DNA of 64,000 nucleotides. Source: Gammaproteobacteria bacterium. GTDB taxonomy: Bacteria > Pseudomonadota > Gammaproteobacteria > Pseudomonadales > Cellvibrionaceae. Of this stretch, positions 2,476-23,585 are shown piece by piece; the stretch's first letter is position 1; the number at the start of each line of letters is the position of its first letter. Made by a program: the position numbers and the translations under genes. The stretch spans positions 248,001 through 312,000 of the forward strand of contig SEBU01000001.1 of the NCBI GenBank assembly GCA_004173475.1, written 5' to 3'. The notes beneath the pieces were generated by a model that saw only the letters and a list, made by a program, of their open reading frames with translations, was not told the origin of the DNA and did not search any database.

Positions 2476-5400
2476 CTACAAGGTTTTGACAATGTTGTTC
2501 AAACCTTGGATCACTACTTCTAGAGAGTCTGGATGATGCAAGTACCTTAAAATTTCGCCGAGTCGATTCTCAATGCGATACAACGTGAGTCTCGCATCGT
2601 CGCTACCTCGCTTACTCGCTACCGGCGACTTATTGGTTGCCGCGTAATAAGAATCGCAGAAGGCGGCATGAACCTGGCCCTTATAGGTTGCGGTAATGGC
2701 GCGGATCTGATCAGCCTCAGAGCCGCTGGTAACGGCCAAAGCACTACGTATGGCTACCGCACCTGCGTCGTCAAACGAACACAACATATCGGCTAAATCT
2801 TTCAAAGGGCTTTGACGAAGATCATCGTCCAGAGTTCCTTTTGAAAGGCGGTCTGCAAAATTAATAAAGTAGGCATCCCCGCGCACAACTAAAACTTGTG
2901 CAAGATTGAAATTTCCATGAATACGAATGCGGACATCTTTATTGACTTGGGTCGATAATTCCTTAATCGCGTTGGTGAGTTTTTTTGCATTGGCAAGCAA
3001 TGTCGCTGCCTCACTCGTAGGATTATCTCGCAACACATCCAACACTTGTTGCAACCGAACTTTAATAGATTTAACCCAGCGACTTGTCTCAGCAGTAGTG
3101 GTTTCGAGATAACCAAAATGGGAATTTTTGCCAGGTTTAGCGAGCAGAACGTGCATCTCTCCTAAACGGCGCCCAATCATTTGAGCAAAGCTCTGTAATT
3201 CCTCCAATGCGGGGAATTGCATATCCATTGACGACGTTCCCGCTGTCAAGCGATCACGCAGCGCACGCTCGAGCGTGTTCTGTGTCCATTGCCAGGCATC
3301 GCCCTGACTGATCACATGACCTTGCAAGATCATCAAGGTGAACTCACCGTCTGGACTCACACGTTTCACTTCACCCAGGAGCGGCACTATGTTGGAAAAG
3401 CCGTTCTCGCCGAGATAAGTATTCATTTCAATATCTGGATGAACACCCGGAAAAAGTTTTCGTATAGGCCGCAATACTAATTTTTCATCGATAACCACCG
3501 AGCCATATACTACGTTGGTTGCGACCACGTTCATTTCTTCGACATTTTTTTCTTCAAGCGATCTTTGGTCAGAATCTTTCCAATAATTTGCTGCACCCGG
3601 CAAGGCTACAAAATGCACCTCACCCCCTTCAATAGGAAGGATTGATTGACCGCGAATGAGGTTAATAATTTTACGATTGAATTCCTGCAGGGTAAATGCA
3701 TCGGTTAATAATCCCGCTGTACGTTTTTGTCGCAAGCGTGCAACTGCGAGCTGTTGCGATGCAGTCCCAGCAATGTGATCCTGAACGAAACCCATTGGCA
3801 AAAAGTAATGCTCGGTTACGCCGCGCACATCAACTTTTACTTCAGAGAAAATCAAAAATTCCGCAGCGTCGCCAATCGGATTGACATATAGCAGCTTCAC
3901 ATTTTCTACCGGCTCGCTTAAATGGCCGGTCCAGGGACATTTGGATAAATAGGCTGGCAGGGATTGGGTTTCCAATACATTACGTGCAGGAATCTCCATC
4001 AGATCTTCCATACCGTTTTTAATAATCACTGTCGTTAATTCTGGCGAGCGTTCTGCTGGTGCAACATACCAGCTTGGCATCTGTGACTCGTCCGATAAGA
4101 GAAACCAATAAAATCCGTAAGGCGGCAAGGTCAACAGATAATTAAGTTTGGTGATAACGGGAAATGAAGTCCCGCCGATCATTTCCACTGGAATTTTTCC
4201 GGCATAACCCGATAGATCCAACTCGCCTGCCTGGGCAGCGCGTGACACATTGGCCACGCATAAAATAATTTCAGTTACACCATCATCGCCCGTGTATTCA
4301 CGTAAATAAGCGAGGATGCGGCGATTTGCAGGTGCGAGGAGTTTTAAGCTGCCGCGACCAAACGCTTTCTGCTGCTTCCGCACGGCCAGCATGCGGCGCG
4401 TCCAGTTTAATAACGAATGCGTATCGTGCGCTTGGGCCTCAACATTAATCGCCTGGAAACCATATAGCGGGTCCATAATGGCGGGAGCAATTAAGCTCGC
4501 CGGATCAGCGCGCGAAAATCCGCCGTTACGATCATCGGTCCATTGCATAGGCGTGCGCACGCCGTGACGATCACCAAGAAAAATATTATCGCCCATGCCG
4601 ATTTCATCGCCGTAATAAAGGGTTGGCGTACCGGGCATGGAGAGCAACAAACTATTTAATAATTCAATACGGCGACGATCGCGCTCTACCAAAGGTGCAA
4701 GGCGTCGGCGAATGCCTAAGTTAATACGCGCGCGTTTATCAGCAGCATAATGATTCCATAAATAATCGCGCTCCTGATCAGTCACCATTTCAAGCGTAAG
4801 TTCATCATGATTACGCAGGAAAATTGCCCACTGACAATTCGCCGGAATATCCGGCATTTGCCGAAGTATATCGATGATTGGGAAACGATCTTCCTGCGCG
4901 ATTGCCATGTACATGCGTGGCATCAACGGGAAATGAAATGCCATATGACACTCATCGCCATTACCAAAATATTGCTGAATATCTTCGGGCCATAAATTCG
5001 CCTCGGCTAGCAACATGCGATCAGGGTAATTTGCTTCGAGGTCGGCACGAATTGCTTTTATGACGGCGTGAGTTTCCGGTAAATTTTCATTGGCCGTTCC
5101 TTCCCGTTCTACCAGATAAGGAATTGCATCTAGCCGCAATCCGTCTACACCTATGTCAAACCAATAATGCATGATGCTTAAAACTTCTTTGAGCACTTCT
5201 GGATTATCAAAATTCAAATCGGGTTGGTTACTGTAAAACCTGTGCCAAAAATACTGCCCCGCCACCGGGTCCCACGTCCAGTTTGAACTTTCTGTGTCGG
5301 AAAAAATGATCCGAGTACCTTCGTATTTTTGGTTGGTGTCTGACCAAACATAAAAATTTCTGGCTTTGGAATCTTTCTTCGCATGGCGCGCTTTTTGAAA

Positions 5401-5778
5401 CCACGAATGCTGATCTGAAGTGTGGTTAATCACCATTTCGGTAATTACACGTAAGCCGCGTTTGTGCGCTTCAGAAATAAACCGACGGGCATCAGCCATG
5501 GTTCCGTAAGCAGGATGAATAGCGCGATATTCGGCAATATCGTAACCATCGTCTCGCATGGGAGAGGGGTAAAAAGGAAGTAGCCAAATAGCATTTACAC
5601 CGAGGCTGGCAATGTAATCAAGTTTGTCTATTAGACCGAGGAAATCACCTACTCCATCGTCGTTGGCATCATAGTAGGATTTGACATGAACCTGATAAAT
5701 AACGGCGTCTTTATACCAGGTGGGGTTTTGCAAAAAATTGTCCTTGGGGACGGCGCTACTTTTGCTTTTTTTTGCCAT
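2476..5778 (-). CDS. treS: Trehalose synthase (TreS) fused to a maltokinase-like domain with degenerate active site
   Basis: The first ~550 residues are a GH13 trehalose synthase that interconverts maltose and trehalose. All three catalytic acids are present: Asp217 (GLRLDAIPY), Glu259 (LLAEANLWPED) and Asp325 (RNHDELT). The C-terminal ~450 residues follow the maltokinase fold, including the conserved SPLKDLADMLCSFD, but key residues differ. The catalytic HGD motif reads HGN (Asn956), the metal-binding DFEGEP motif reads NFADRL (Asn973), and the Lys expected in the ATP-binding strand appears as Arg770. The kinase half is therefore probably inactive. The chosen ATG at 5776-5778 precedes MAKKSKSS with an AAGG-type ribosome site; the frame extends 15 residues further. 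The gene lies downstream of ku-ligD. No glgE, the usual user of maltose 1-phosphate, is in the window. Confidence 0.9.
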   Translation of the reverse strand: MAKKSKSSAVPKDNFLQNPTWYKDAVIYQVHVKSYYDANDDGVGDFLGLIDKLDYIASLGVNAIWLLPFYPSPMRDDGYDIAEYRAIHPAYGTMADARRFISEAHKRGLRVITEMVINHTSDQHSWFQKARHAKKDSKARNFYVWSDTNQKYEGTRIIFSDTESSNWTWDPVAGQYFWHRFYSNQPDLNFDNPEVLKEVLSIMHYWFDIGVDGLRLDAIPYLVEREGTANENLPETHAVIKAIRADLEANYPDRMLLAEANLWPEDIQQYFGNGDECHMAFHFPLMPRMYMAIAQEDRFPIIDILRQMPDIPANCQWAIFLRNHDELTLEMVTDQERDYLWNHYAADKRARINLGIRRRLAPLVERDRRRIELLNSLLLSMPGTPTLYYGDEIGMGDNIFLGDRHGVRTPMQWTDDRNGGFSRADPASLIAPAIMDPLYGFQAINVEAQAHDTHSLLNWTRRMLAVRKQQKAFGRGSLKLLAPANRRILAYLREYTGDDGVTEIILCVANVSRAAQAGELDLSGYAGKIPVEMIGGTSFPVITKLNYLLTLPPYGFYWFLLSDESQMPSWYVAPAERSPELTTVIIKNGMEDLMEIPARNVLETQSLPAYLSKCPWTGHLSEPVENVKLLYVNPIGDAAEFLIFSEVKVDVRGVTEHYFLPMGFVQDHIAGTASQQLAVARLRQKRTAGLLTDAFTLQEFNRKIINLIRGQSILPIEGGEVHFVALPGAANYWKDSDQRSLEEKNVEEMNVVATNVVYGSVVIDEKLVLRPIRKLFPGVHPDIEMNTYLGENGFSNIVPLLGEVKRVSPDGEFTLMILQGHVISQGDAWQWTQNTLERALRDRLTAGTSSMDMQFPALEELQSFAQMIGRRLGEMHVLLAKPGKNSHFGYLETTTAETSRWVKSIKVRLQQVLDVLRDNPTSEAATLLANAKKLTNAIKELSTQVNKDVRIRIHGNFNLAQVLVVRGDAYFINFADRLSKGTLDDDLRQSPLKDLADMLCSFDDAGAVAIRSALAVTSGSEADQIRAITATYKGQVHAAFCDSYYAATNKSPVASKRGSDDARLTLYRIENRLGEILRYLHHPDSLEVVIQGLNNIVKTL

Positions 5779-5905
5779 AGTGATGCCTTTTAATTTAACG
5801 GAAAGCGCACATCCAGATTTCACAAATCAATAAGCTGAATGCGGATTACGGGGAGGTTTCTCAAACGCTTTATCATCAAGAAAAGGAGTCAAATCATCTG
5901 TGCGG

Positions 5906-5974: not shown

Positions 5975-8776
5975 TTACTGCAATTTTTTCCACATAGCCT
6001 GGGTAATACCTTTACGGCACTTATAATCACTCCAGGGATCGGTTTTTAATTTTTCCAGCCGTTCGTGTAAATTTGCAATTGTCCATTGTGACGACGCGGT
6101 AATTTTCAATAATTCATCCCGTGTAATGGGCACAGATACAGGCAAACCGGGCCGGGCTCGTACCGAGAAAGCGGAAACAGTGCTTGCGCCACGTTGGTTA
6201 CGCAAATAATCGATAAAGATTTTACCAACTCTATTTTTAGGGCCCATCTTCGACACGAAGCGTTCAGGAATCTGCCGTTCCATAAAGGTAGAAATTGCTT
6301 TAGAAAACTCCTTTACCTGATCCCAATCCGCATCCGGCTTAATAGGTATAACAACATGCATACCTTTTCCGCCCGTTGTTTTCACAAACGCATCAAGTTT
6401 TAATTCGTCCAAAAGCGCCAGGATTAAACGTGTTGCTTCAACGACGCTACGCCACGGCAAAGCAGGATCCGGGTCGAGATCGAGAGTGATGCGATCAGGT
6501 ATTTCAATTTTTTCGACTTTGGAACCCCAGGTATGCAGTTCAATCGTGCCCATTTGAACTGCACCTACAAGCGCCTGTGTACTATCAATTTCCATCAATG
6601 CCGCATGACCAGGGTCAAGTGATTTATCGAGATGTTTAATGTTCGGAATTGCCAGGTGTTCAGTGTGCTTCTGAAAAAATTGCTCACCTCCAATGCCTTC
6701 CGGCAAACGCAAAATAGATACGGCGCGATTATCGAGATGCGGCAAAATCCAGTTAGAAATTTCACCATAAAATACTGCCAAATCTTTTTTAGTCGATTGC
6801 GAATCAGGATCAATAATACGGTCCGGGTGGGTGATGGTGATTTTGGAAACAGGCTCTTGTTCTGGAGCATCTTTTTTCGGTTTTACCGGTTTATTTTCTT
6901 CTGACAATTCACTATCCCCGCTCGCTGAATTTTTTGGCACTACAGATTTTTTTGATGCAGCAGTTTTGGATGGCGCTTTGCTCGTTTGCATAGGACTAAT
7001 TTCAGGCGGCGGCAAGTCCTGAGGCGAGCGGGCTTGCTCGCGAGTGATATCGCGCGCGGGCTTATCGGTTCGTAGCGATACAAAAACAGCCTGCCGTAAT
7101 ACGCCCTCACCTGTCCATTGCGCAAACTCCGCTTCGCACACTAGCGTTGGCTCTACCCAATGCACTCTTCGCATTTGCGAGCTATTTAACTTATGTGAAA
7201 GAGGTGAATCCTCACGCTCCAATTTTTTCAATTTTTTATAAATATCCTGCAGTTTTTTCTCATCGAACCCAGTACCAATGCGACCCGCGTACAACAATTT
7301 TGAACTGCCCATTTTTTCGTGGACGCCAATCAAAAGCGCGCCGAAACCCGAACGTGCGCCTTGTGGACTGGTATAGCCGACAATCACAAATTCTTGTCGC
7401 AATTTACATTTTAATTTAATCCAGTCACCGCTGCGTCTGCTTACATACGGGCTGCCTGCCCGCTTTCCGATTATTCCCTCTAATGACATAGCACACGCGC
7501 TTGCCAACACATTCGAATGATCAAGATCAAACGCAACCGAAAGCCGTATGGGTGTTTTAGCTTTGGAAGGAATAATTTTTTCCAGGAGCGCACGCCTGGT
7601 CTCGATTGGCTGGTTACGCAAATCAACGCCCTGTAAAAAAGGCGCGTCGAAAAGGTAATAAATAATGTGGTGACTCTTGCCTATATCAAACGCGTTTTGT
7701 AGACCCTGAAAATCCGGGAGCCCCGCGTCGTTCAGCACCACCACCTCACCATCCAACCAACAATCGTCCAGGCCGAGGTCCGCAATGGCTTTTGCTTGTA
7801 CGGGTAACTTATCTGTCCAATCATGCGCATTGCGAGTGAGCATACTGACCTCACCATTTTTAATGCGCGTGAGAATGCGATAACCGTCATATTTAATTTC
7901 ATACAACCAATCGCCAGATGGCGGTTCACTTACCAGAGTGGCTAGTTCGGGTGAAAGCTCCTGAGGTACGACAGATTTTTTGGCAGACGAAATATCAAAA
8001 GATGTTTTGCTATCCATAGCGTTTGATTTCTTTCCGAAGGCTTTTTTTTCTACTACTTCTTTTTGTAGCACTTTTTCTTCAAGTAATTTTTCTTCCGTTG
8101 CTTTGCCTTTTGGTGCTTTGCCTTTTGGTGGTTTGGCAGAAGCTTTTGAAATTTTTTGTGTTTTGGTTACATTTGCAGATTTAGTTTTCGTTGGCGATTT
8201 TAGCTTAAGCTCCGCGCCAGTCAAAACGCTTTGAGGTTGCTCGCTAACAATGTCGTATTCGGCAGAGGGTCGTGCAATTTCATCCCGCTCTTTAATGAGT
8301 AACCACTGCTCTTTATCTCCACTAGCTCGCAAGTGGGTGCGAACCAAAGCCCAAGCGCCGGTTAGCTTCTCTCCAATCAAATTAAATTTTAATTTGCCTG
8401 ACTTGTAAGCTTGTGCTGGATCGCCATGGGGCTCCCATACACCACGGTCCCATACGATAACGTCACCGCCACCATATTGGCCATGCGGAATGGAACCTTC
8501 AAATTCTGCATAACTTATGGGATGGTCTTCAACATGGACGGCAAGTCGTTTATCGTTTGGATCGAGACTTGGGCCCTTAGGAATCGCCCAACTTTTCAAG
8601 GTTCCATCCAGCTCAAGACGAAAATCATAATGAAGGCGACGAGCGTCGTGTTTCTGAATAACAAAGGTTAGGGCGTGCGCACTGTCTTTACCCCTTTTAC
8701 TTTTTGTATCACCAGAGGGTTCAGACGTTAGTTTAAAATTGCGTTTACGATTGTATTCACTCAATGCTTTGGTCAT
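5975..8776 (-). CDS. ligD: Multifunctional ATP-dependent DNA ligase D for non-homologous end joining
   Basis: A 933-residue protein with the Pseudomonas-type order. First comes a 3'-phosphoesterase domain (about 30-160; RRLHYDFRLEL, GSIPHGQYGGGDV). After a Lys-rich linker (~195-265) comes the ATP-dependent ligase domain with nucleophile Lys295 in YEIKYDGYRI and LDGEVVVL. A second Lys/Ser-rich linker (~590-640) leads to the primase-polymerase domain with the metal-binding pair Asp766/Asp768 (LDLDPDP). With Ku it repairs double-strand breaks: the polymerase fills ends, the phosphoesterase cleans them, the ligase seals. The start ATG lies 3 bp after the ku stop, so the two are co-transcribed. 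All key residues seen are intact. Confidence 0.97.
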   Translation of the reverse strand: MTKALSEYNRKRNFKLTSEPSGDTKSKRGKDSAHALTFVIQKHDARRLHYDFRLELDGTLKSWAIPKGPSLDPNDKRLAVHVEDHPISYAEFEGSIPHGQYGGGDVIVWDRGVWEPHGDPAQAYKSGKLKFNLIGEKLTGAWALVRTHLRASGDKEQWLLIKERDEIARPSAEYDIVSEQPQSVLTGAELKLKSPTKTKSANVTKTQKISKASAKPPKGKAPKGKATEEKLLEEKVLQKEVVEKKAFGKKSNAMDSKTSFDISSAKKSVVPQELSPELATLVSEPPSGDWLYEIKYDGYRILTRIKNGEVSMLTRNAHDWTDKLPVQAKAIADLGLDDCWLDGEVVVLNDAGLPDFQGLQNAFDIGKSHHIIYYLFDAPFLQGVDLRNQPIETRRALLEKIIPSKAKTPIRLSVAFDLDHSNVLASACAMSLEGIIGKRAGSPYVSRRSGDWIKLKCKLRQEFVIVGYTSPQGARSGFGALLIGVHEKMGSSKLLYAGRIGTGFDEKKLQDIYKKLKKLEREDSPLSHKLNSSQMRRVHWVEPTLVCEAEFAQWTGEGVLRQAVFVSLRTDKPARDITREQARSPQDLPPPEISPMQTSKAPSKTAASKKSVVPKNSASGDSELSEENKPVKPKKDAPEQEPVSKITITHPDRIIDPDSQSTKKDLAVFYGEISNWILPHLDNRAVSILRLPEGIGGEQFFQKHTEHLAIPNIKHLDKSLDPGHAALMEIDSTQALVGAVQMGTIELHTWGSKVEKIEIPDRITLDLDPDPALPWRSVVEATRLILALLDELKLDAFVKTTGGKGMHVVIPIKPDADWDQVKEFSKAISTFMERQIPERFVSKMGPKNRVGKIFIDYLRNQRGASTVSAFSVRARPGLPVSVPITRDELLKITASSQWTIANLHERLEKLKTDPWSDYKCRKGITQAMWKKLQ

Positions 8777-8779
8777 GGC

Positions 8780-9781
8780 TTACCTCGCCGACGACTTGGC
8801 TTTTCTGGTCGTAGATTCAGTTTTCGTATGTGATGTCGACTCTTTTTTCTTAGGTGCGGATGTCGTTTTCTTCGCGGTTGAAGCAGATTTAGTCGAGGTT
8901 GTTTTTCCAGTTTTGCTATTGGCAGTTTTAGTGCTCGATTTCTTATCCGAGCGATCAGTATCAGAAACCTTTGCACTTTTCTGAGCGTTGTCTTTTCCGC
9001 GCAAACTGCGTTTTAACAATTCCGTTAAATCAATAATATCAGCACTTTTGCGACCTTCACTGTCTGGATCTGTCTCAACATTTTCTATTTCACCATCACG
9101 CGCTTTTTTATCGACGAGCTCCATGATTTTTTCCTGGAAAGTGTCGCGATAATTTTCAGGTTCCCATTCGCCAACCATATCCTCAACTAAACGCTTCGCC
9201 ATCTCTTTTTCGCTCTTGCTTAAAGTGGCGTCGGTGGTTGTTTTGGTTAAAGCTAGTTCATCCAAGCTGCGAACTTCAGCCGGCCATCGTAACAATACTA
9301 AAACCAGTGCTGACTCCACCGGCATAAGCGCCGCAAGGTGTTGCCGCGTGTGCAGAATTACGTAGGCAAGTGCGACCTTTTTAGACTCTATGAGAGTTTC
9401 GCGTAATAACGCATAAACTTTTTCGCCACGTTTATCAGGAGACAGGTAATAAGGGGTGTCGATATTGGCTAGCGGAATTTGATCGCTATCAATAAAAGAA
9501 AATATATCGATAGTTTGTGTAGATGCTGGATGGGCAAGACGAATTTCTTCTTCTGAGAGAATTACATAGCGCCCTTTCTCGTAGGCAACACCTTTAACAA
9601 TATGTTCTTTAGTAACCTCCTTTCCAGTAACTTTATTAACGCGTTTATAACCGACTGGCTCCATACTCCTTTCGTCCAGCCAGTCAAAGTCGATTGATTG
9701 AGATGAGGTTGCTGAATGGAGTGCAACGGGAATATGCACCAAACCAAAACTAATTGCACCTTTCCAAATTGCCCGGGCCAT
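8780..9781 (-). CDS. ku: Ku, DNA end-binding protein of bacterial non-homologous end joining
   Basis: Ku forms a homodimeric ring on DNA ends and recruits LigD. The 333-residue protein starts with the signature MARAIWKGAISFGLVHIPVA, carries the core beta-barrel (~1-255; includes EEIRLAHPASTQTIDIFSFI and YYLSPDKRGEKVYALLRE), and ends in a long tail (~258-333) made mostly of Lys, Ser and Thr with little predicted fold. Such basic tails bind DNA in several bacterial Kus. The ATG has a GAGGGGG ribosome site. ligD follows after 3 bp. The Ku core is intact; only the tail length and composition are unusual. Confidence 0.97.
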   Translation of the reverse strand: MARAIWKGAISFGLVHIPVALHSATSSQSIDFDWLDERSMEPVGYKRVNKVTGKEVTKEHIVKGVAYEKGRYVILSEEEIRLAHPASTQTIDIFSFIDSDQIPLANIDTPYYLSPDKRGEKVYALLRETLIESKKVALAYVILHTRQHLAALMPVESALVLVLLRWPAEVRSLDELALTKTTTDATLSKSEKEMAKRLVEDMVGEWEPENYRDTFQEKIMELVDKKARDGEIENVETDPDSEGRKSADIIDLTELLKRSLRGKDNAQKSAKVSDTDRSDKKSSTKTANSKTGKTTSTKSASTAKKTTSAPKKKESTSHTKTESTTRKAKSSAR

Positions 9782-10571: not shown

Positions 10572-11084
10572 ATGAAAACGACCAAATTACTTTTAACAGG
10601 CGCGTTCGTATTTGCATTTAATATGATTTGCGGATCTGCAATGGCAGCCGATACAGTTGATGCTGACGATTTTGTAGAAGAAGCCTCAGCAGCTGGCGTT
10701 GCTGAAATTGAAACTGCAAAATTGGCACTTCAAAAATCAACCGCTGGAGATGTGAAAACATTTGCTCAGTCAATTATTAATGACCACACCGCAGCTAACA
10801 GAGAACTTGCAAGCATCGCAAGCAAAAAGAAACTGAAAGTTTCTACCGAAGCTGAACTTTTAAATAAAGCGAAAGCTGCCGTGTTGAAACAACGCGAGGG
10901 TGAGTCCTTCAACGCAGCATACGCGAACAATCAGGTAAATGCGCACAAAGATGCCATTGAATTGTTTAAAAAGGCATCCGTTTCTGAAGATAAAGAATTA
11001 GCCGCTTTCGCGGTGGCGACATTACCTAAACTTGAGCATCACTTACACGCCGCACACGAGTTGGCGAAAGCTTATCCAAAATAA
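10572..11084 (+). CDS. DUF4142 ferritin-like periplasmic protein
   Basis: A 170-residue exported protein with a signal peptide ending in AMA/A (residues 1-25), followed by a helical DUF4142 domain. Family hallmarks are FVEEASAAGVAEIETAKLAL, the central FAQSIINDHTAANREL, and the C-terminal LPKLEHHLHAAHELAK. These form a four-helix, ferritin-like bundle. Function is unknown; members are often expressed under stress. The ribosome site is GAGG, and a strong terminator follows directly, so the gene is monocistronic. Confidence 0.88.
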   Translation: MKTTKLLLTGAFVFAFNMICGSAMAADTVDADDFVEEASAAGVAEIETAKLALQKSTAGDVKTFAQSIINDHTAANRELASIASKKKLKVSTEAELLNKAKAAVLKQREGESFNAAYANNQVNAHKDAIELFKKASVSEDKELAAFAVATLPKLEHHLHAAHELAKAYPK

Positions 11085-11098
11085 TTGTTGGACAGCAT

Positions 11099-11132
11099 AA
11101 AAGTGGCGCACATCAATGCGCCACTTTTTTTA
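11099..11132 (+). terminator. Rho-independent terminator after DUF4142 gene
   Basis: Perfect 12-bp stem (11099-11110 with 11117-11128), six-base loop, then a T run. It lies 14 bp after the stop codon. Confidence 0.9.
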
Positions 11133-11220
11133 TTTAACTTTTACCATTATTGTCCGAGGCGAAGCCCGAGGTGAGGTCTGCGACGAGGATGATATCGTAA
11201 ACGAGCAAGAGGATAAGATC

Positions 11221-11625
11221 GTGGAAAAAACTTATCATGGCAGCTGTCACTGTGGAAAAGTCAAAATTAGGGTGAAGCTGGATATAGCCAAAGGAACTGG
11301 TAAATGTAACTGCAGCTACTGCCGAAAATCCCGTTTTTGGGGTTTCAATATTAAGCCCGAAGCTTTCACGCTCATGAGCGGTGAAAATGATTTGAGCGAT
11401 TATCAATTTAATACACACTCCATACATAATTTATTTTGTAAACACTGCGGTATACGCACCTTTGGGCGCGGTCATTTAAAAGAATTGGGGGGCGATTTTT
11501 ATAGTGTTCACGTCGCCTGTTTGGATGACGTGGATATTGAAGAGCTCGTGAATGCGCCAATTTATTACTCAGACGGTCTTCACGATAATTGGCAAAACCC
11601 ACCTTCAGAAACTCGTCACCTTTAG
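11221..11625 (+). CDS. GFA / CENP-V family zinc protein
   Basis: A 134-residue protein of the glutathione-dependent formaldehyde-activating (GFA) family. Its zinc ligands are visible: CHC in HGSCHCGKV, then CNCSYC, and FCKHCG in the C-terminal half, followed by the typical RTFGRG. Members bind S-hydroxymethylglutathione or related thiols, but most have no proven substrate. A GTG at 11221 with an AAGAGG ribosome site is preferred. An ATG at 11116 in the same frame lies inside the preceding terminator and adds an unconserved leader. The gene is single and follows the DUF4142 terminator. Confidence 0.82.
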
Positions 11626-11689
11626 TTTCAAATTTGGTAGTCAGTTTGTAACGGCGCTAAGATCAAAATTAACCTAGAGGAGTCACATC

Positions 11690-13488: not shown

Positions 13489-13647
13489 AAATTGCAGTGA
13501 AATATAAACTCAAAATGTCGAGCTTTATATAAACAAGAAATCATTATTCATTTAAAAGTAAGCTTAAAAATCGAAACTTCTGCATAAGGAATTGGTCACG
13601 TCTTTAGGACACAGATTTGAGACTTTTTTCACATTTTGGAGCCAATC

Positions 13648-15333
13648 ATGGGAACCGCTGCTAGTATTGCGAATCTCGCGCAAACGCACTTCACCACCCG
13701 CCTTTACCTTGGCAAGCAACACCTAAAAGATTTGAAGCAAGACGCTACAGTACACACTAAAAATATTTTATTTGTTACTTCAGAATATTCTGATTTGATT
13801 AAAGCCGGCGGCCTTGGCGATGTATCTTCCGCGCTACCCAAAGCCTTACTAAAACGGAATGATGTACGCATACTTATTCCCGGTTACAAACAAGTAGTCG
13901 AAAGCGGTCACGCGATTAGTGTGGTTGACGAACTCCCTGCCTACGCGCATTTACCGTCGTGCAAAATTGGCCGACTTCAAATTGATAAAGGTCCAATTAT
14001 ATATGTTGTTTTAGCGCCTGAATTGTATGAGCGGGAGGGTAACCCTTACGGTGATGAAAAAGGTAAAGATTGGGACGATAATCCAATTCGGTTTGCTCGC
14101 TTCTCATTAGCAGCAGCTGAAATTGCTCGCGGGAGAAACTCACTTAACTGGCAACCCGAACTTGTTCACACTCACGACTGGCCCGCTGCTTTGACCTCCG
14201 CCTATATGAAGTGGCAGGGTCAACACACGCCGAGCGTATTCACAATACACAACCTCGCGCATCAGGGTTTGTGTGCTCCTGAATATCTTGAAAAATTAGG
14301 ATTGCAGAGCGATGCATTGACGATAGATAGCATGGAATTTTATGGTCAACTTTCCTTTATGAAAGCGGGCATTAATTTTGCGAATCATATTACTACCGTC
14401 AGTGAAACTTACGCCCAAGAAATTACGCAACCTGAATTCGGTTGCGGGCTCCATGGATTGCTCAAGCAAAAATTCGATCAGCATTTATTAAGCGGTATAA
14501 CAAACGGAATTGACGATAGCTGGGAACCAGATTCAGATCCACATTTGGTGGAAAGTTTTAAGGCGCGCAAATGGCACGGTAAACACGCCAACACCCGTTA
14601 TCTGGAACATTTATTTAACCTGAAACCAAGTTCAGCTCCGTTGTTTGCCGTTGTCTCTCGTTTAGCGCATCAAAAGGGGCTGGATTTAACCTTGCGTATT
14701 GCTGAAGTTATTGTGAAAGCTGGCGGGCGTTTAATTGTTATGGGTACCGGGGAAAAGAAAATTGAAAAAGAATTGCTGCACCTAGCAGAACGTCATCCCA
14801 ATCACATAGGTGTTCATATTGGCTTTAACGAAGCAGAGGCGCGCAGAATTTTTGCCGGTAGTGACTTTCTCCTAATGCCTTCGCGTTTTGAACCTTGCGG
14901 TTTGAGCCAAATGTATGCGCAACGCTTTGGCTCCTTACCAATTGCACATAGAACAGGTGGGTTGGCAGATACCATTGACGATGGCTTGAACGGTTTTTTA
15001 TTTTCGGATCTCACTATAGAAAGTTATGCGCGTGCTGTGCATCGCGCATTGCACGTATTTAAACATCGCGAATTATTATGCGCGATGCGCTGTCATGCTA
15101 TGGCATCACCTATGTATTGGAAACAATCTGTGCTTCCTTACGATCAGCTATACAGTCGACTCATTAATGAAAATCAGACGAACGTGAAAAACTCTGAGCA
15201 GGTTGAAATAAATTCTGAGATGGAGAAATTTGAATTTAAAGATCGCCGCCATCGCGAGCGCCGCGATCCTATAAATCGTGCCTACACTTATAAAATTTAT
15301 TCGGATAACCGCGTCAATCGGAGGCAAGCTTGA
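13648..15333 (+). CDS. glgA: Glycogen synthase (GT5) with Arg-rich C-terminal tail
   Basis: GlgA adds glucose from a nucleotide sugar to alpha-1,4-glucan. Motifs are intact: KAGGLGDVSSALPKAL (substrate loop), VHTHDWPAALTSAYM, SRLAHQKGLDLTLRI and the C-terminal SRFEPCGLSQMYAQRFG with HRTGGLADTI. The body ends near residue 505; about 55 further residues form a charged tail with DRRHRERRDP, not typical of GlgA. The start is the ATG at 13648, with GGAG six bases upstream; a TTG at 13636 in the same frame overlaps that ribosome site. Its TGA overlaps the treZ ATG, so the genes are translationally coupled. glgB and glgC are not in the window. Confidence 0.95.
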   Translation: MGTAASIANLAQTHFTTRLYLGKQHLKDLKQDATVHTKNILFVTSEYSDLIKAGGLGDVSSALPKALLKRNDVRILIPGYKQVVESGHAISVVDELPAYAHLPSCKIGRLQIDKGPIIYVVLAPELYEREGNPYGDEKGKDWDDNPIRFARFSLAAAEIARGRNSLNWQPELVHTHDWPAALTSAYMKWQGQHTPSVFTIHNLAHQGLCAPEYLEKLGLQSDALTIDSMEFYGQLSFMKAGINFANHITTVSETYAQEITQPEFGCGLHGLLKQKFDQHLLSGITNGIDDSWEPDSDPHLVESFKARKWHGKHANTRYLEHLFNLKPSSAPLFAVVSRLAHQKGLDLTLRIAEVIVKAGGRLIVMGTGEKKIEKELLHLAERHPNHIGVHIGFNEAEARRIFAGSDFLLMPSRFEPCGLSQMYAQRFGSLPIAHRTGGLADTIDDGLNGFLFSDLTIESYARAVHRALHVFKHRELLCAMRCHAMASPMYWKQSVLPYDQLYSRLINENQTNVKNSEQVEINSEMEKFEFKDRRHRERRDPINRAYTYKIYSDNRVNRRQA

Positions 15334-17108
15334 TGTCATTACCCGAAGAACGTCACGGAGCATTTCCCAACAAAGATAACACCACTCGTTTCGCCATCTG
15401 GGCGCCGGATGCATTACGTGTAACGATTAAATTAGGCGACGGCCGACGATTTGATTTAATAAAAAGTTTAGATGGATGGCACTGGATTAATATCGAGTGT
15501 GGGCCAGGAACACAGTACACCTACATTATCGACAATGATCTCGAAGTTCCCGATCCAGCATCACGAGGGCAGGTCAGCGATGTACACAGCCCAAGCTATG
15601 TAGTCGATCAAAATTATCCCTGGAAATGCGTTACCTGGCACGGTCGCCCTTGGCATGAAACCGTTATCTACGAATTACATGTCGGGCTGTTCGGCGGATA
15701 TAAAAAGGTTGAGGAATATTTACCGCAGCTTGTGGAACTCGGAATTACCGCCATTGAGCTAATGCCATTGAGCGAATTCCCTGGCGCGCGCAACTGGGGC
15801 TATGACGGTGTATTACCTTTTGCTCCTGAAGCGTCTTACGGCACGCCCGATGAATTAAAAAGTTTAATTGATACCGCGCACGATTTAAATCTTATGGTTT
15901 TTATCGATGTGGTTTACAACCACTTCGGCCCCGATGGAAATTATCTGGGTCATTATGCCAAAGGTTTTTTCCGCGATGACATAAAAACTCCCTGGGGTTC
16001 CGCTATAGATTTTCGTCGCAGCCAAGTGCGCGATTATTTTTGCGAAAATGCACTTATGTGGGTGGTCGATTATCGAGCGGATGGTTTGCGTTTCGATGCG
16101 GTACATGCCATCAGCGAAAAAGATTTTCTAGTCGAACTCGCTGAAAGAGTTCGCGACGCTATTTTACCGAGTCGACACGTTCACTTAATGCTGGAGAACG
16201 AAGACAACAATGCAAACCTGCTGGAAAACGGATTTGATGCGCAGTGGAATGATGACGGTCATAACATATTGCATCACATCATCACCGGTGAGAAAGAAGG
16301 TTATTACGAAAACTTTTCCGACGTTCCTACGACCAAACTAGCTCGTTGTTTCAGTGAAGGATTTATCTACCAAGGCCAACTTACCCGTAAAGGCACTCCG
16401 CGCGGTACGCTAAGCGGACATTTGCCACCCACCTCTTTCATTTTGTTTTTGCAAAATCATGATCAGGTTGGTAATCGCGCCTTTGGCGAGCGGTTGCCGC
16501 TTCTTGCCGACAATGAAGACCTGAAAATTGCGGTTGCGCTTATGCTGCTTTGCCCAATGATTCCTCTGTTATTTATGGGTGAGGAATGGGGTTCGCAACA
16601 ACCTTTCTTATTTTTTACCGATCACAATGAAGAATTAAGCAAATTGGTTTGCGAAGGCCGTAGAAAAGAATTTGCGGATTTTGCGATATTTAGTGACGGA
16701 GAATCACTGGAAAAAATTCCAGATCCCAATGCGCTCACAACATTTACCAATTCTGCGTTAAACCATGAGCTTCATAACGCGCCCGAGCACCAGGATTGGT
16801 GGAACTTTTATAAATCGTTATTGCAGTTACGCACTACCGAACTAACACCTCAACTCCCAGGCTCATTTTCGTTGGGCACTCACGCACTTGCTGAAAAGGC
16901 AATTTGCGCCGCATGGACTTTAGGTTCTGGGGATGTTTGGCGAATATATATTAATTTTTCCGCTGAAGAAGTAACGGCAACGCCGACTTGGTCCGGCTCC
17001 AAATTAATTTTTGATTACGGCTTGGACAAATCCAAATATGAGGCAGGACAATTGCCGGGGAAAAGTATCTTGGTAAGCGTAACCACTGCCGAAAATCGAA
17101 ATTCATAA
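15333..17108 (+). CDS. treZ: Malto-oligosyltrehalose trehalohydrolase
   Basis: TreZ releases trehalose from maltooligosyl trehalose, the product of TreY. The 591-residue enzyme begins with an E-set/CBM48 domain (~15-95), followed by the GH13 barrel with YELHVGLFG and ELMPLSEFPGARNWGYDGV. The catalytic acids are Asp255 (GLRFDAVHAI), Glu288 (LMLENEDN) and Asp377 (LQNHDQVGNRAFGERL). The last of these motifs is specific for TreZ. The ATG overlaps the glgA stop (TGATG), with GGAGG eight bases upstream; a TTG one codon earlier is less likely. In pseudomonads malQ and treY follow; here a minus-strand YkvA gene intervenes. Confidence 0.95.
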   Translation: MSLPEERHGAFPNKDNTTRFAIWAPDALRVTIKLGDGRRFDLIKSLDGWHWINIECGPGTQYTYIIDNDLEVPDPASRGQVSDVHSPSYVVDQNYPWKCVTWHGRPWHETVIYELHVGLFGGYKKVEEYLPQLVELGITAIELMPLSEFPGARNWGYDGVLPFAPEASYGTPDELKSLIDTAHDLNLMVFIDVVYNHFGPDGNYLGHYAKGFFRDDIKTPWGSAIDFRRSQVRDYFCENALMWVVDYRADGLRFDAVHAISEKDFLVELAERVRDAILPSRHVHLMLENEDNNANLLENGFDAQWNDDGHNILHHIITGEKEGYYENFSDVPTTKLARCFSEGFIYQGQLTRKGTPRGTLSGHLPPTSFILFLQNHDQVGNRAFGERLPLLADNEDLKIAVALMLLCPMIPLLFMGEEWGSQQPFLFFTDHNEELSKLVCEGRRKEFADFAIFSDGESLEKIPDPNALTTFTNSALNHELHNAPEHQDWWNFYKSLLQLRTTELTPQLPGSFSLGTHALAEKAICAAWTLGSGDVWRIYINFSAEEVTATPTWSGSKLIFDYGLDKSKYEAGQLPGKSILVSVTTAENRNS

Positions 17109-17815: not shown

Positions 17816-20806
17816 ATGACTGCAGTTAATGCCACAGTGCGTTTGCAATTTCATCAAGGATTCACGCTTGATGACGCTGTAACACTGGTCCCTTATTTTA
17901 AACGTCTCGGTATAAGCCACATTTACGCATCACCTCTGTTGAAAGCCCGTGCAGGTTCAATGCACGGCTATGACGTGGTCGACCCTTCGTGTATTAATCC
18001 TGAGCTTGGTGGCGAGCCTGCACTTGAACGTTTGGTAACAGCGCTTCGTGAACACCAAATGGGGCTAATTGTGGATATCGTCTGCAATCACATGGCGGTT
18101 GGTAAGGATGACAACCCCTGGTGGCTAGATGTTTTACAGTGGGGCTTAAAAAGTCCTTATGCGCGCTACTTTGATATTCAGTGGAATTCACCCGACCCTT
18201 TATTGAAGGGACAACTGCTATTACCTTTTTTAAGTGGTAATTACGGCGAGGTATTGGCTGCCGGCGACATTACGCTACATTTTGATTCGCAATCGGGCGA
18301 ATTTTTCGCAAAACATTACGACCACAAATTTCCGATTTATCCGCCTAGCTACGGGCACATTTTGCGACATGCGAAGCATCCAGCGCTGCAACCTTTTATT
18401 CGTTTATTTGAAGCCTTGGAGACCGCCGAAAAAGATGAAGAGCGTTCGCAAGATGCAAAAGTATTGCACAAGCAATTAGGCACACTCGCGCAAAATGAGG
18501 CGGTGGCTGAGAGCATTGCAGAGGCTATAAAAGCCTACGATGTCTCAATTCACGAAACCGCGGTTCACGAAACAGCAGTCTCTGAAAAACAAGCTGCATT
18601 AGAAACCACGGCACATGATGACCATTTGGTGAGAGACGAACATTCAGGCGATTTGCATCCCGATTGGCAACACAATGAAAATTTGCAACGCTTACATGAG
18701 TTACTTGAGTTGCAACATTATCGGCTTGCGAGCTGGCGCACAGCGTCAGACGATATAAATTGGCGCCGCTTTTTTGATGTGAATGAGCTTGCAGGATTAC
18801 GTATAGAACGCTCAGAGGTTTTTGAAGCGAGCCACGGAAAAATTTTCGAATTAGTTGCTAAGGGCTGGATTGATGGCTTGCGAATCGATCATGTCGATGG
18901 CCTCGCAAATCCCCGCGCCTATTGCCGTAAATTGCGTCGTAGACTCGACAATCTCCATGCCCAACGTCCACCGGAATTGGCGCAAGACCACATGCCAATT
19001 TATGTTGAAAAAATTTTGGCTGATAAAGAAAAGCTCAACACCAGCTGGCGCACCGACGGTACGACCGGCTATGAATTTATGAACCAGGTTTCGCTGTTGC
19101 AACACGATCCGCGTGGTGAACTACAGTTATTTGATCTGTGGACGCGCATTAGCGGCAGACAAGGCACCTTTAAAGATGAAGCGCGTGAAGCCAGACGTTT
19201 GGTGCTTGCCAGTAGTTTGGCTGGAGACGTAGAAACAGTTGCGCAGGGGCTCCTACAAATTGCGAGAACCGACATAGCTACACGCGATTTACCGCTTGGC
19301 GCTATTCGCCGCGCTTTAATTGAAATCGTTGTTCACTTTCCTGTGTATCGCACTTATGCAAACGCGTGTGGACGAGCGGAACAAGACCAAATCTATTTTA
19401 ACGAAGCGCTTACCGGCGCGCGCCAATCCCTGGCGGAAAGTGACTGGCCTATTTTAGATTATTTGGAACCCTGGCTCGGCGGCTTGGCACTTCACGCATT
19501 ACCGCCTGGCCCTATCCGAAACTTGCGTAAAAAAACGATTGCGCGCTTTCAGCAGCTCACATCACCTGCTGCTGCAAAAGCGGTAGAAGACACAGCCTGT
19601 TATCGCTCCGCTGTTCTACTCTCGCGTAACGACGTCGGGTTTGACCCCCAGAATTTTAGTGCACCGCTCAGCCAGTTCCACGAACAAAACCGGGAACGCG
19701 CACTGTATTTCCCGGCCAACTTATTAGCTACAGCAACCCACGATCATAAGCGCGGGGAAGATACGCGTGCGCGCATCGCCGTTATCAGCGAGCGATCTGT
19801 TTGGTTCGCGGGCAAGCTTGAGCAGTGGCAGGCTCTATCCACACCGCTAAAGACCACTCTTGATGATGGTGTAGCACCCTCACCTGGCGACGAAATCATG
19901 TTGTACCAAGTTCTCTTGGGAACCTGGCCTTTATCCCTGATGGAAACGGACGCAGTTAACTCTGAAACAATCCAACATTACCTTGAGCGTATGTTGCGTT
20001 GGCAAGAAAAGGCGCTGCGTGAGGCCAAGCTACGCACCAGCTGGAGCGCACCCAACGGCGCGTATGAAACCGCCAATCAAGAATTTTTAACACACTTGCT
20101 CACGGCAGCGGATATGAAGCCATTGCGTGATGACATCATAAACTCAGCGGCTTCACTTGCTCCTGCGGGCGCGTTAAATGGCCTTACACAAACCCTGTTG
20201 CGCATGACGGCGCCAGGCATACCAGATCTCTACCAAGGCTGTGAGTTTTGGGATTTTAGTTTGGTTGACCCCGATAATCGCCAGCCTGTCGATTTTGGCG
20301 CGCGCGTTGCAGCTCTCTCATCAAACTTAGGAGCCGACTCAAGCTCGCAACCTGATCTGTCCGAGTTGATGTCGCTCTGGCGAGATGGCCGTATCAAACA
20401 ATGGCTGATTGCCGCAACTCTGCGTCTACGCCATCAATACCACACTCTGTTTTCAACGGGAGACTACCAACAGCTCGTCGTTGAAGGCGAGTGCGCAGAC
20501 CAGGTGGTTGCATTTGCTCGATTACACGAGGGCCGCTGTTTAGTGGTGATTGCACCCAGACTGTGCTCTAACTTGCTGGGTGATAGCACAATTCCTCTGG
20601 TTAATCCCACGGCGTGGGGCAATACGTGTGTCTTATTTCCTCCGGAAGTCGACGAGTCGAGCAAGTTGGTTGAGAGCCTGGCACCTGTTAATGAAAGTCT
20701 TGGAAGTTCTTGTTCGGTCAGCGAGTTACTGGCCAAATCACCGATCAACATTCTTATTTTCGAGGTTGGTTCTGACAACAAACCAGCCGCACCTTCATTC
20801 ACCTGA
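17816..20806 (+). CDS. treY: Malto-oligosyltrehalose synthase
   Basis: TreY converts the reducing end of alpha-1,4-glucan to a trehalose unit. The 996-residue length is slightly long for the family. N-terminal hallmarks are TVRLQFHQGFTLDDAVTLVP and HGYDVVDP. Catalytic residues are Asp358 (DGLRIDHVDGL) and Glu398 (IYVEKILADKEKL). The C-terminal APGIPDLYQGCEFWDFSLVDP is diagnostic. Relative to the family there is an acidic, His/Glu-rich insertion near 242-285 that contains a direct HETAV duplication. The ribosome site (AGAG) is modest. A 15-bp gap to the DUF2934 gene shows co-transcription. Confidence 0.95.
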   Translation: MTAVNATVRLQFHQGFTLDDAVTLVPYFKRLGISHIYASPLLKARAGSMHGYDVVDPSCINPELGGEPALERLVTALREHQMGLIVDIVCNHMAVGKDDNPWWLDVLQWGLKSPYARYFDIQWNSPDPLLKGQLLLPFLSGNYGEVLAAGDITLHFDSQSGEFFAKHYDHKFPIYPPSYGHILRHAKHPALQPFIRLFEALETAEKDEERSQDAKVLHKQLGTLAQNEAVAESIAEAIKAYDVSIHETAVHETAVSEKQAALETTAHDDHLVRDEHSGDLHPDWQHNENLQRLHELLELQHYRLASWRTASDDINWRRFFDVNELAGLRIERSEVFEASHGKIFELVAKGWIDGLRIDHVDGLANPRAYCRKLRRRLDNLHAQRPPELAQDHMPIYVEKILADKEKLNTSWRTDGTTGYEFMNQVSLLQHDPRGELQLFDLWTRISGRQGTFKDEAREARRLVLASSLAGDVETVAQGLLQIARTDIATRDLPLGAIRRALIEIVVHFPVYRTYANACGRAEQDQIYFNEALTGARQSLAESDWPILDYLEPWLGGLALHALPPGPIRNLRKKTIARFQQLTSPAAAKAVEDTACYRSAVLLSRNDVGFDPQNFSAPLSQFHEQNRERALYFPANLLATATHDHKRGEDTRARIAVISERSVWFAGKLEQWQALSTPLKTTLDDGVAPSPGDEIMLYQVLLGTWPLSLMETDAVNSETIQHYLERMLRWQEKALREAKLRTSWSAPNGAYETANQEFLTHLLTAADMKPLRDDIINSAASLAPAGALNGLTQTLLRMTAPGIPDLYQGCEFWDFSLVDPDNRQPVDFGARVAALSSNLGADSSSQPDLSELMSLWRDGRIKQWLIAATLRLRHQYHTLFSTGDYQQLVVEGECADQVVAFARLHEGRCLVVIAPRLCSNLLGDSTIPLVNPTAWGNTCVLFPPEVDESSKLVESLAPVNESLGSSCSVSELLAKSPINILIFEVGSDNKPAAPSFT
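18551..18580 (+). repeat. Tandem 15-bp duplication inside treY
   Basis: Two imperfect 15-bp copies (18551-18565 and 18566-18580; 3 differences) encode HETAV twice. They lie in the linker-like insertion of TreY, away from catalytic residues. Confidence 0.7.
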
Positions 20807-21419: not shown

Positions 21420-23585
21420 ATGACTAAACATGAGAGACCTGATCAACTAACCCTATCCTCCAGAACCTGCGAAGGCCAACCTTTTCCTTTAGGGGCCACT
21501 TGGGATGGACAGGGCGTAAACTTTGCAATCTTCTCAGCTCATGCGACCAAGGTTGAATTGTGCTTGTTCGACGCAGAAGGTAAAGCGGAACTTGAACGCA
21601 TCGAACTACCCGAATTTACCGACGAAATCTGGCACGGTTATTTGCCAGGCCTACAGCCCGGGCAAGTCTATGGCTACCGTGTTTACGGCCCTTACGAACC
21701 AACCGCGGGTCACCGCTTTAACCCGAACAAATTGTTGATGGACCCTTATGCCAAACAGTTGGTCGGCGAATTAATTTGGGACGATGCCTTGTTTGGCTAT
21801 ACCATTGGCCACCCGGATCTAGACCTCAGTTTTGATGAACGCGACAGCGCACCTTTTGTACCCAAAGCAATGGTCATCGACCCGGCCTTCGACTGGAATG
21901 GCAAGCAGGCCTACCGAGTGCCCTGGGACAAAACCATCATTTACGAAACCCATTTAAAGGGCATCAGCAAACTTCACCCGTCGGTGCCAGAGCGTTTGCG
22001 CGGCACCTGCGCTGGTTTGACCAATAAAGATTTACTCGAACACCTTAAATCCTTGGGTGTGACGAGCGTTGAATTGCTGCCGGTTCACGCCTTTCTGCAT
22101 GACAACCATCTTCTCGAAAAAGGGCTAACGAATTACTGGGGCTACAACACCATCGCGTTCCTAACGCCCCACGCTGAATACCTAGCGAGCGGCCACTTGC
22201 ACGAATTTAAGGAAATGGCTGCCTGCCTCCATGAAGCTGGTCTGGAACTCATTTTGGATGTGGTTTACAACCACACCGCTGAAGGCAGTGAATTAGGCCC
22301 AACCTTGTCTATGCGCGGCATAGATAACGCTACTTACTACCGCTTACTGCCCGATAACCCGCGTTATTACATCAACGATTCAGGCACAGGTAACACACTT
22401 GACCTTACTCACCCTTGCGTATTACGTCTGGTAACTGACTCACTTCGTTATTGGACAACCGAAATGGGCGTCGATGGATTCCGGTTCGATTTGGGCACAA
22501 TTTTGGCCCGCGAAACTACCGGCTTTAACGAGCGCCACGGATTCCACGTCGCCTGCCGGCAAGACCCGGTATTGAGCCAACTTAAGTTGATCGCCGAGCC
22601 TTGGGATTGCGGCCCTGGTGGTTATCAAGTTGGCGCATTTCCTCCCGGTTGGCTTGAGTGGAACGATCGCTTCCGCGATACGGTACGCGCATTCTGGCGC
22701 GGAGACGGCGGCAAGTTACCCGAGTTAGCCAGCCGCATAACCGCGTCTGGAGACCTATTTAACTGGGGCGGACGTAGACCTTTCGCATCAGTAAATTTCA
22801 TTACCGCGCATGACGGTTTCACCATGCGCGACCTCGTGAGTTACAACGAAAAACACAACGAAGCCAATGGCGATGAAAATCGTGATGGCAATGACAACAA
22901 TATTTCCTATAACCACGGCGCTGAGGGCGATACAGACGACGCTAATATTCGAGAGATTCGCTTACGTCAGATTCGCAATTTATTAAGCACACTCCTGCTG
23001 TCCCAAGGTACTCCAATGCTGGTTGCGGGGGATGAATATGGACGCAGCCAACACGGCAATAACAATGTTTATTGTCAGGACAACGAACTGAGTTGGTTAG
23101 ATTGGAATTGGGATGACGAAGCCAAAGGCTTGGTTGAGTTCACCAAAAAATTGACCAGCTTACGCCGCGAATATCCAATCCTTCGACGCGGGCGCTTTTT
23201 GGTGGGTGCTTATAACGAAGAGTTGGGCGTAAAAGATGTCACCTGGCTTGCGCCATCCGGCAATGAAATGAACGATGAATTGTGGAGCACAACACCGGTC
23301 TCCTGCCTCGGCATTATTCTGGATGGCCGGGCGCAAACCAGCGGTATTCATAGACGCGGATGCGACACGACATTGTTGATTATTTTTAACGCTCACCATG
23401 AAGGCATAAATTTTACCTTGCCCGAAGTTGTTCAGGGTTGCTGTTGGTTAAGGCTACTGGACACATCAAATCCTGATGGCGAATTAAACGATGTTCACAA
23501 TTTTGGAGAGGATTTTTGCGCTCATGATCGCTCAGTAATTCTTTTCAAACTTACCACCGAAGAATGCAAGGCGCATCATGAATAA
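21420..23585 (+). CDS. glgX: Glycogen debranching enzyme (isoamylase type)
   Basis: GlgX cuts alpha-1,6 branches from limit dextrin and supplies linear malto-oligosaccharides for TreY. The 721-residue enzyme has an N-terminal CBM48 domain (PFPLGATWDGQGVNFAIFSA), then the family block YGYRVYGPYEP with GHRFNPNKLLMDPYAK. Catalytic acids are Asp357 (DGFRFDLGTI), Glu393 (LIAEPWDCG) and Asp465 (TAHDGFTMRDLVSYN). The C-terminal DNELSWLDWNW is typical. The ATG has a AAGGAG ribosome site. The stop overlaps the next gene by 8 bp, which ties the glucan genes to the ybhP-clsB-ybhN trio. Confidence 0.96.
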   Translation: MTKHERPDQLTLSSRTCEGQPFPLGATWDGQGVNFAIFSAHATKVELCLFDAEGKAELERIELPEFTDEIWHGYLPGLQPGQVYGYRVYGPYEPTAGHRFNPNKLLMDPYAKQLVGELIWDDALFGYTIGHPDLDLSFDERDSAPFVPKAMVIDPAFDWNGKQAYRVPWDKTIIYETHLKGISKLHPSVPERLRGTCAGLTNKDLLEHLKSLGVTSVELLPVHAFLHDNHLLEKGLTNYWGYNTIAFLTPHAEYLASGHLHEFKEMAACLHEAGLELILDVVYNHTAEGSELGPTLSMRGIDNATYYRLLPDNPRYYINDSGTGNTLDLTHPCVLRLVTDSLRYWTTEMGVDGFRFDLGTILARETTGFNERHGFHVACRQDPVLSQLKLIAEPWDCGPGGYQVGAFPPGWLEWNDRFRDTVRAFWRGDGGKLPELASRITASGDLFNWGGRRPFASVNFITAHDGFTMRDLVSYNEKHNEANGDENRDGNDNNISYNHGAEGDTDDANIREIRLRQIRNLLSTLLLSQGTPMLVAGDEYGRSQHGNNNVYCQDNELSWLDWNWDDEAKGLVEFTKKLTSLRREYPILRRGRFLVGAYNEELGVKDVTWLAPSGNEMNDELWSTTPVSCLGIILDGRAQTSGIHRRGCDTTLLIIFNAHHEGINFTLPEVVQGCCWLRLLDTSNPDGELNDVHNFGEDFCAHDRSVILFKLTTEECKAHHE

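Follow-up and report, generated by a model that had tools for sequence, protein, structure and literature searches.

The window analysed here is a 64,000-nucleotide stretch of a Cellvibrionaceae genome (contig SEBU01000001.1, positions 248,001–312,000). It contains a gene in which trehalose synthase (TreS) is fused to a maltokinase (Mak) fold, and several residues of the Mak half that correspond to catalytic positions are replaced. This locus raises the question of why a kinase half that could hardly phosphorylate maltose is still attached to TreS. The answer that we favour, and hold to be fairly probable, is that a conserved pseudomaltokinase has been kept as a docking or assembly domain of TreS after the loss of GlgE, the enzyme that uses maltose 1-phosphate. 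From sequence comparison, we infer that the kinase half is inactive and that TreS depends on it.

Catalytic residues of the kinase half

The first-pass annotation had read the locus as one fusion protein with N956, N973 and R770 at kinase positions, and translation confirmed the protein, the three residues and the positions of both Asn codons to codon level. An alternative GTG start is possible at 5823, 45 bases upstream. In the profile search, the TreS half clears the TIGR02456 cut-off (914.7 bits against 678.35). Its three catalytic acids, D217, E259 and D325, which had been described as retained, are indeed present; they are found in 11/11 Cellvibrio proteins, and each of the 114 rows of the alignment described below has the full set of these acids. 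The 'putative maltokinase' model TIGR02457 spans residues 578–1097 at its full model length, with 335.8 bits, under the cut-off of 375.05.

Residue equivalences were taken from the alignment to solved maltokinases, and are numbered here according to Mycobacterium vanbaalenii Mak (MvMak). N956, N973 and R770 fall on D305, D322 and K149 of MvMak, which are the putative base, the Mg-binding Asp and the phosphate-binding Lys, respectively (PMC4306142). The D339N substitution, the same change as N973, abolishes the activity of M. tuberculosis Mak, and the P-loop Ser-to-Ala mutant of MvMak loses 97% of its activity (PMC4306142). Mutating a Lys and two Tyr residues, which are proposed to bind maltose, nearly abolishes Mak activity (PMC4306142). 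The P-loop and this KxxYxxxY motif are both replaced in the window protein (Table 1), which is also altered at the positions of H307, E324, E326 and R334. A whole-protein search of its own genome revealed no second maltokinase, as no other kinase-half match was found at E 0.001.

The C-terminal half is predicted to keep the Mak fold. The kinase half of the AlphaFold model matches the Mak structure 5jy7_L (TMt 0.86, root-mean-square deviation 3.8 Å by Foldseek), and also 4u94. The full-length model has a mean predicted local distance difference test (pLDDT) value of 62.6 and a predicted template modelling (pTM) score of 0.51, and 423 residues are below 50. Because nearly all of these residues are in the TreS half, the domain arrangement is unreadable, and the kinase half alone was used. 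The predicted fold resembles those of mycobacterial Mak/Pep2 and the TreS:Pep2 complex (5jy7, 4u94, 4o7o). However, mycobacterial Mak/Pep2 is a separate active chain, with 17–20% identity over the structural alignment. The TreS-Mak/TreS-Pep2 fusions of Pseudomonas (PA2152) and Estrella lausannensis show the same domain order and similar length and fold, Estrella being likened by description only. The window protein is 57% identical to that of P. aeruginosa PA7 and 60% identical to that of P. argentinensis over the matched protein. Unlike the Pseudomonas and Estrella fusions, its kinase half is changed at the base, the Mg ligand, the P-loop and the maltose site, and no GlgE was found in its genome. 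A kinase fold with its catalytic residues lost corresponds to a pseudokinase. This assignment, proposed as probable in the first-pass annotation, is strongly supported by the sequence, and it can be extended beyond this protein, to the genus and one more lineage. No maltokinase pseudokinase was described in the literature searched, whose coverage leaves out most subscription journals.

The fusion is present in 11 of the 21 Cellvibrio genomes; neither a kinase-half match nor a strong TreS match was found in the other ten. The alignment consists of 11 Cellvibrio rows (window included) and 103 others, after L047 (truncated) and L029 (the same as L111) were dropped. In the Cellvibrio rows, S136, K413, Y416 and Y420 are lost in 11/11. 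D305 is lost in 10/11, always to Asn, and D322 is also lost in 10/11 (Asn in six, Cys in three, His in one). W14, R152, H245, H303, G304, F323 and D343 are retained in 11/11. K149 is lost only in the window protein, and the Lys-to-Arg change is therefore the least informative of the three changes put forward earlier. As HGN is read in 10/11 Cellvibrio proteins, the window included, and the frames of all 11 are open, a sequencing or frame error was rejected.

In the 103 other rows, D305, D322, K149, N137 and Q310 are present in 103/103, and S136, K413, Y416 and Y420 in 101–102. The HGD conservation in these rows is partly a matter of selection, because 78 of them came from a DNA-pattern search (hinge motif or HG[ND], best 80 of 513) whose patterns favour HGD or HGN. 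The 25 genomes of the order and relatives, and a further 38 genomes of the phylum, were found by profile or protein search and are free of this bias. In the profile-found phylum genomes, D305 is kept in 37/38 and D322 in 38/38.

Trees were built from 35 of the 114 rows. The ten HGN proteins group with full support in both the TreS-half and the kinase-half trees. The remaining Cellvibrio protein, G011, alone keeps HGD and DFE, yet has lost the P-loop Ser and the maltose-site residues. In the TreS tree, G011 is sister to the ten HGN proteins (100/99 for the 11-member clade); support for this clade in the kinase tree is 75/91. In the simplest reading, the P-loop Ser and the maltose site were lost early, and the two Asp residues afterwards. 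The Cellvibrio TreS clusters with Pseudomonas-type TreS (96/92), not with that of G024, a member of its own family on a long branch. This grouping and the ten Cellvibrio genomes lacking the fusion suggest that the fusion was likely acquired laterally.

The retention of HGD and DFE in G011 is also what favours a still active maltokinase that works through other residues. We consider this the least probable of the explanations. No Asp or Glu is found in the catalytic or the metal column of the ten HGN proteins. The effect of D339N mentioned above argues against activity, as does the loss of the maltose-site residues in every Cellvibrio protein, G011 included.

Selection on the degenerate half and its proposed contact with TreS

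Among the Cellvibrio relatives, the TreS halves are 85–95% identical to the window, and the kinase halves 38–67%. This difference, together with the ten genomes that have no match, would fit a functionless remnant on its way to loss. Such decay is, however, already disfavoured, and we regard it as very improbable. The kinase-half frames are open in 11/11 Cellvibrio proteins, although synonymous divergence between the closest pairs is already about one change per site. When one active kinase half was randomly substituted in an indel-free simulation starting from that single gene, 0/500 frames were open at 0.2 changes per site. The dN/dS ratio (omega; Nei–Gojobori, without codon bias) of the kinase half is 0.04–0.09 in the six closest Cellvibrio pairs, some of them near saturation (G012/G014 is saturated in 207/500 replicates), against 0.07–0.18 in 22 close pairs of active kinases. 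The value is 0.043 (bootstrap 0.028–0.061) for G009/G012 and 0.063 (0.040–0.086) for G001/G002. The kinase half outpaces TreS in divergence in active fusions too, so that faster change alone does not indicate relaxation; at a TreS identity of 0.85–0.90, however, the mean kinase-half identity is 0.43 in Cellvibrio pairs and 0.58 in others. These results indicate that the degenerate half is under purifying selection and is not decaying.

Strong purifying selection would also be consistent with new chemistry, in which the fold would act as a kinase on a different substrate or transfer some other group. SelO is an example of a pseudokinase with other chemistry. A branch of 1.35 changes per site leads to G009/G012/G014, and omega is then 0.04–0.08 among them, as after a change of role. 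In addition, 17 columns are invariant in the ten HGN proteins and rare in the 103 others. On the other hand, the P-loop, the base, the metal ligand and the substrate pocket are all eroded, and differently from clade to clade (the Mg ligand is replaced by Asn, His or Cys). A shared new active site would not predict erosion that differs among clades, and this explanation seems improbable.

In order to locate the constraint, seven clade-A pseudokinases were compared by segment with 973 active-fusion pairs of similar TreS identity (mean 0.92 for the pseudokinases, which are slightly closer, and 0.91 for the active pairs). The segment bounds were set by hand, and some loops lie outside the segments. 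Relative to the active pairs, the divergence is 2.69 for HGD-DFE, 1.78 for the KxxYxxxY helix, 1.73 for the P-loop and 1.52 for the DVA helix. It is 1.04–1.22 in six other segments, and 0.55 in the hinge and alpha-5 (825–846), the region with the ten-residue stretches that are best conserved in the pseudokinase. In the TreS:Pep2 complex of M. smegmatis, the hinge loop (beta-12) and alpha-5 touch TreS (PMC6509496). By homology, residues 825–846 of the window protein are taken as this contact. The pattern agrees with the prediction for a docking domain, because the catalytic and maltose-binding parts are lost while the contact part is kept. The earlier proposal of a sensor, a scaffold or a substrate-binding module thus stands in part. 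The scaffold fits the conservation pattern best. The substrate-binding module is unsupported, since the proposed maltose-binding Lys and two Tyr are lost in 11/11, and a maltose sensor is disfavoured by the same loss.

The case for a docking domain is indirect, and several observations weigh against it. Helix alpha-6, another TreS contact, shows no extra conservation (ratio 1.09), and R312 and P503 of TreS, which are contacts in M. smegmatis, are replaced in active fusions too. The numbering of the M. smegmatis contacts (PMC6509496) is unsure, because Pep2 218 was aligned to a Gly. With this uncertainty, the contact R534 of TreS corresponds to R513 (11/11 Cellvibrio, 89/103 others), and Pep2 228 corresponds to E860 (11/11 Cellvibrio, Glu in 95/103 others). 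Stand-alone TreS proteins exist, solved examples among them. Wider Cellvibrio pairs are saturated or show omega up to 0.33. Finally, the hinge is part of the adenine pocket as well, and the Lys is kept in 10/11; a nucleotide sensor explains this retention equally well.

Owing to this double role of the hinge, nucleotide sensing is the main rival. In this view, the hinge of the degenerate kinase would still bind an adenine nucleotide, with no metal involved, and the domain would set TreS activity allosterically. The QGDAW hinge, in the most conserved stretches, lines the MvMak adenine pocket by alignment, and K149 (10/11), H245 and D343 (both 11/11) are kept in Cellvibrio. The ATP site adjoins the TreS interface (PMC6509496), and the TreS activity of the Estrella TreS-Mak drops at high ATP (PMC7935935). 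The Estrella effect, however, needs 3–20 mM ATP, and may be due to metal chelation. Of the contacts to the gamma-phosphate and to Mg, S136 is missing in 11/11 and D322 in 10/11, and the window protein itself has Arg for the Lys. Moreover, in an HGH pseudokinase of another family (G557, described below), the Asp and Trp of the hinge appear to be replaced by His and Gln. We regard nucleotide sensing as rather unlikely.

The docking reading predicts that fusion-type TreS depends on its Mak domain, and it bears on the cooperation of TreS and Mak in the GlgE pathway, a tuberculosis drug target. A parallel for an extra C-terminal domain thought to help TreS is found in Thermus thermophilus: its long-tailed TreS has a C-terminal domain that reportedly affects thermostability and trehalose yield. 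The Cellvibrio fusion presents a stepwise case in which a domain loses catalysis yet stays strongly selected, and the likely cause, the loss of the next pathway enzyme, is readable from the genomes.

Link with GlgE and the gene neighbourhood

The absence of GlgE from the window, noted at first pass, extends to the organism's own genome and to the genus. The GlgE N-terminal domain PF11896 was found by profile search in 0/21 Cellvibrio genomes, of which 16 pass quality and five are <90% complete or >5% contaminated. A whole GlgE query gave no match in the own genome and no full-length match in the genus genomes. Weak partial matches occur in 15/21 genus genomes (28–35% over about 85–114 aa), and the longest partial match is 33% over 279 query positions, in G005. 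Across the 57 genomes searched, PF11896 is present in exactly the three non-Cellvibrio genomes that carry a fusion, all with intact kinase residues.

Among 390 genomes sampled from the order, TreS_Cterm matches above the cut-off and GlgE occur in the same 24 genomes, and the two full-length below-cut-off fusions both belong to Cellvibrio without GlgE. In the 398-genome phylum sample, G557 is the only other full-length below-cut-off match. From the 41 phylum genomes with a new full-length fusion, 38 were taken (G725, G752 and G769 were left out). GlgE was not found in four of the 38 searched, G557, G666, G747 and G682, and all four fusions have changed sites. Nine key sites are unchanged in 53/59 fusions from GlgE-positive genomes vs 0/15 from GlgE-negative ones. 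The sites were picked post hoc, and R at K413 and T at S136 were accepted as unchanged. D305 or D322 is lost in 0/59 and 11/15 fusions, respectively. With Cellvibrio counted once, the Fisher test gives 3e-5, which is indicative only, because members of the same clade are not independent of one another.

The link has exceptions. Two or more of the nine sites are changed in 5/59 GlgE-positive fusions (G452, G519, G561, G598, G615), and one site is changed in G471, also GlgE-positive. In addition, 3/5 GlgE-negative lineages keep both Asp residues. Of the nine sites, just the two maltose-site Tyr are changed in G666 and G747, and the P-loop and the Lys in G682; HGD and DFE are intact in these three.

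The order and cause of the residue losses may be envisaged as follows. In the absence of GlgE, maltose 1-phosphate would lead nowhere while using up trehalose and ATP, and would be potentially harmful, and the loss of kinase activity would then be tolerated or favoured for this reason. A first step would have removed the P-loop Ser along with the residues of the maltose site, which are changed in all 11 proteins; a second, in the ancestor of the ten, would have turned HGD into HGN and eliminated the Mg ligand. The kinase fold would be retained owing to a dependence of TreS on it, most likely as a docking or assembly partner in covalent linkage, and TreS would now interconvert maltose and trehalose without a phosphorylation sink.

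In Streptomyces venezuelae, maltose 1-phosphate builds up in a glgE mutant, which is delayed, whereas a pep2 mutant is not (PMC5042117). One E. coli strain formed no colonies when given a plasmid with the Estrella TreS-Mak, presumably, according to the authors, because maltose 1-phosphate is toxic (PMC7935935). In P. aeruginosa, maltose 1-phosphate rises almost 8-fold when glgE is lost, and trehalose about 7-fold when treS/pep2 is lost (PMC8084333). By analogy with these results, an active kinase in Cellvibrio without GlgE would be at best wasteful. Since P. aeruginosa without glgE could be studied (PMC8084333), poisoning need not be the driver, which counts against the harm-based part of this proposal. 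In practice, a 'TreS/maltokinase' annotation could wrongly assign maltose 1-phosphate synthesis to Cellvibrio and comparable genomes.

Cellvibrio carries a Pseudomonas-type trehalose/alpha-glucan cluster without glgE. The features of the window gene and its neighbours are listed in Table 1; ClsB is also near the fusion gene. The neighbourhoods of the fusion in ten Cellvibrio relatives were compared over at most 20 kb each. Genes for DUF4142 (9/10), an MscS-like protein (9/10), a Rho_N-domain protein (8/10), GlgA (7/10), TreZ (7/10), Ku and LigD (3/10; G003, G008, G011) and DUF4136 (1/10) are found beside the fusion, and neither GlgE nor GlgB is found in any of the ten stretches. In the Pseudomonas genomes, Ku or LigD lies beside the operon: the order is LigD, GlgE, TreS-Mak, GlgB in P. 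argentinensis, and Ku, GlgE, TreS-Mak, GlgB in P. aeruginosa PA7. We read the order Ku-LigD-TreS-Mak of the window, G003, G008 and G011 as what the loss of GlgE and GlgB from a Pseudomonas-type cluster would leave. One full or partial GlgB copy is present in 20/21 Cellvibrio genomes. As genomes without TreS are included, this GlgB probably serves the classical glycogen route.

Table 1. Features of the TreS fusion gene and neighbouring genes (window coordinates; residue numbers of MvMak in parentheses)
Feature	Position	Strand	Basis
TreS fused to putative pseudomaltokinase, 1100 aa	2476..5778	-	single open frame
TreS (GH13 trehalose synthase) half, residues 1-560, catalytic acids intact	4099..5778	-	TIGR02456, PF00128/PF16657
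Maltokinase-fold half, residues 561-1100, catalytic residues degenerate	2479..4098	-	TIGR02457 below cut-off
P-loop EQSN (E134/Q135/S136/N137) replaced by N755/V756/V757/Y758	3505..3516	-	alignment
R770 in place of ATP-binding Lys (K149)	3469..3471	-	alignment to solved maltokinases
N956, HGD to HGN, catalytic base (D305), codon AAT	2911..2913	-	alignment
N973 in place of Mg-binding Asp of DFE (D322), codon AAT	2860..2862	-	alignment
Maltose-site KxxYxxxY (K413/Y416/Y420) replaced by N1071, G1074, gap	2545..2568	-	alignment
Hinge QGDAW and following helix, residues 825-846	3241..3306	-	conservation comparison
LigD, directly upstream of fusion	5975..8776	-	
Ku	8780..9781	-	
GlgA	13636..15333	+	
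TreZ	15330..17108	+	
TreY	17816..20806	+	
GlgX	21420..23585	+	
Small DUF4142 and Rho_N-domain genes	10572-12061 and 1714-2286	+ and -	

Altered kinase halves in other lineages

G557, a genome from another family of the class to which Cellvibrio belongs (Gammaproteobacteria), carries a TreS fusion reading HGH (L138, 2514-7421, minus strand). K149, S136, N137, Q310 and the maltose site are lost and D322 is kept, and the genome has no PF11896 match. The gene sits between an OtsA-like frame, read from sequence, and Ku. As the family is different, this pseudomaltokinase is probably of independent origin. It is about an even chance, in our estimation, that retirement of the kinase in TreS-Mak fusions is a recurrent response to GlgE loss, which would have occurred at least once (Cellvibrio) and possibly also in G557, G666, G747 and G682. 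The dead or eroded kinase would then persist because TreS needs it for regulation or assembly, in a graded series from active kinase to pseudokinase within a single enzyme family.

In G598 (L165/L168) and G615 (L166/L167), GlgE is present, and the fused Mak has an altered P-loop and maltose site. A separate 574-aa maltokinase frame (L168 and L167, respectively) retains all nine kinase residues, and it is possible that the two Mak copies share labour. In L154, L158 and L163 (G452, G519 and G561), the base and the metal ligand are intact, the maltose-site Lys and first Tyr are altered, and GlgE is present. The TIGR02457 scores of these three are among the highest; a changed substrate is possible.

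Elsewhere in the window, a single open frame of 2980 aa occupies 40168-49110 on the minus strand.

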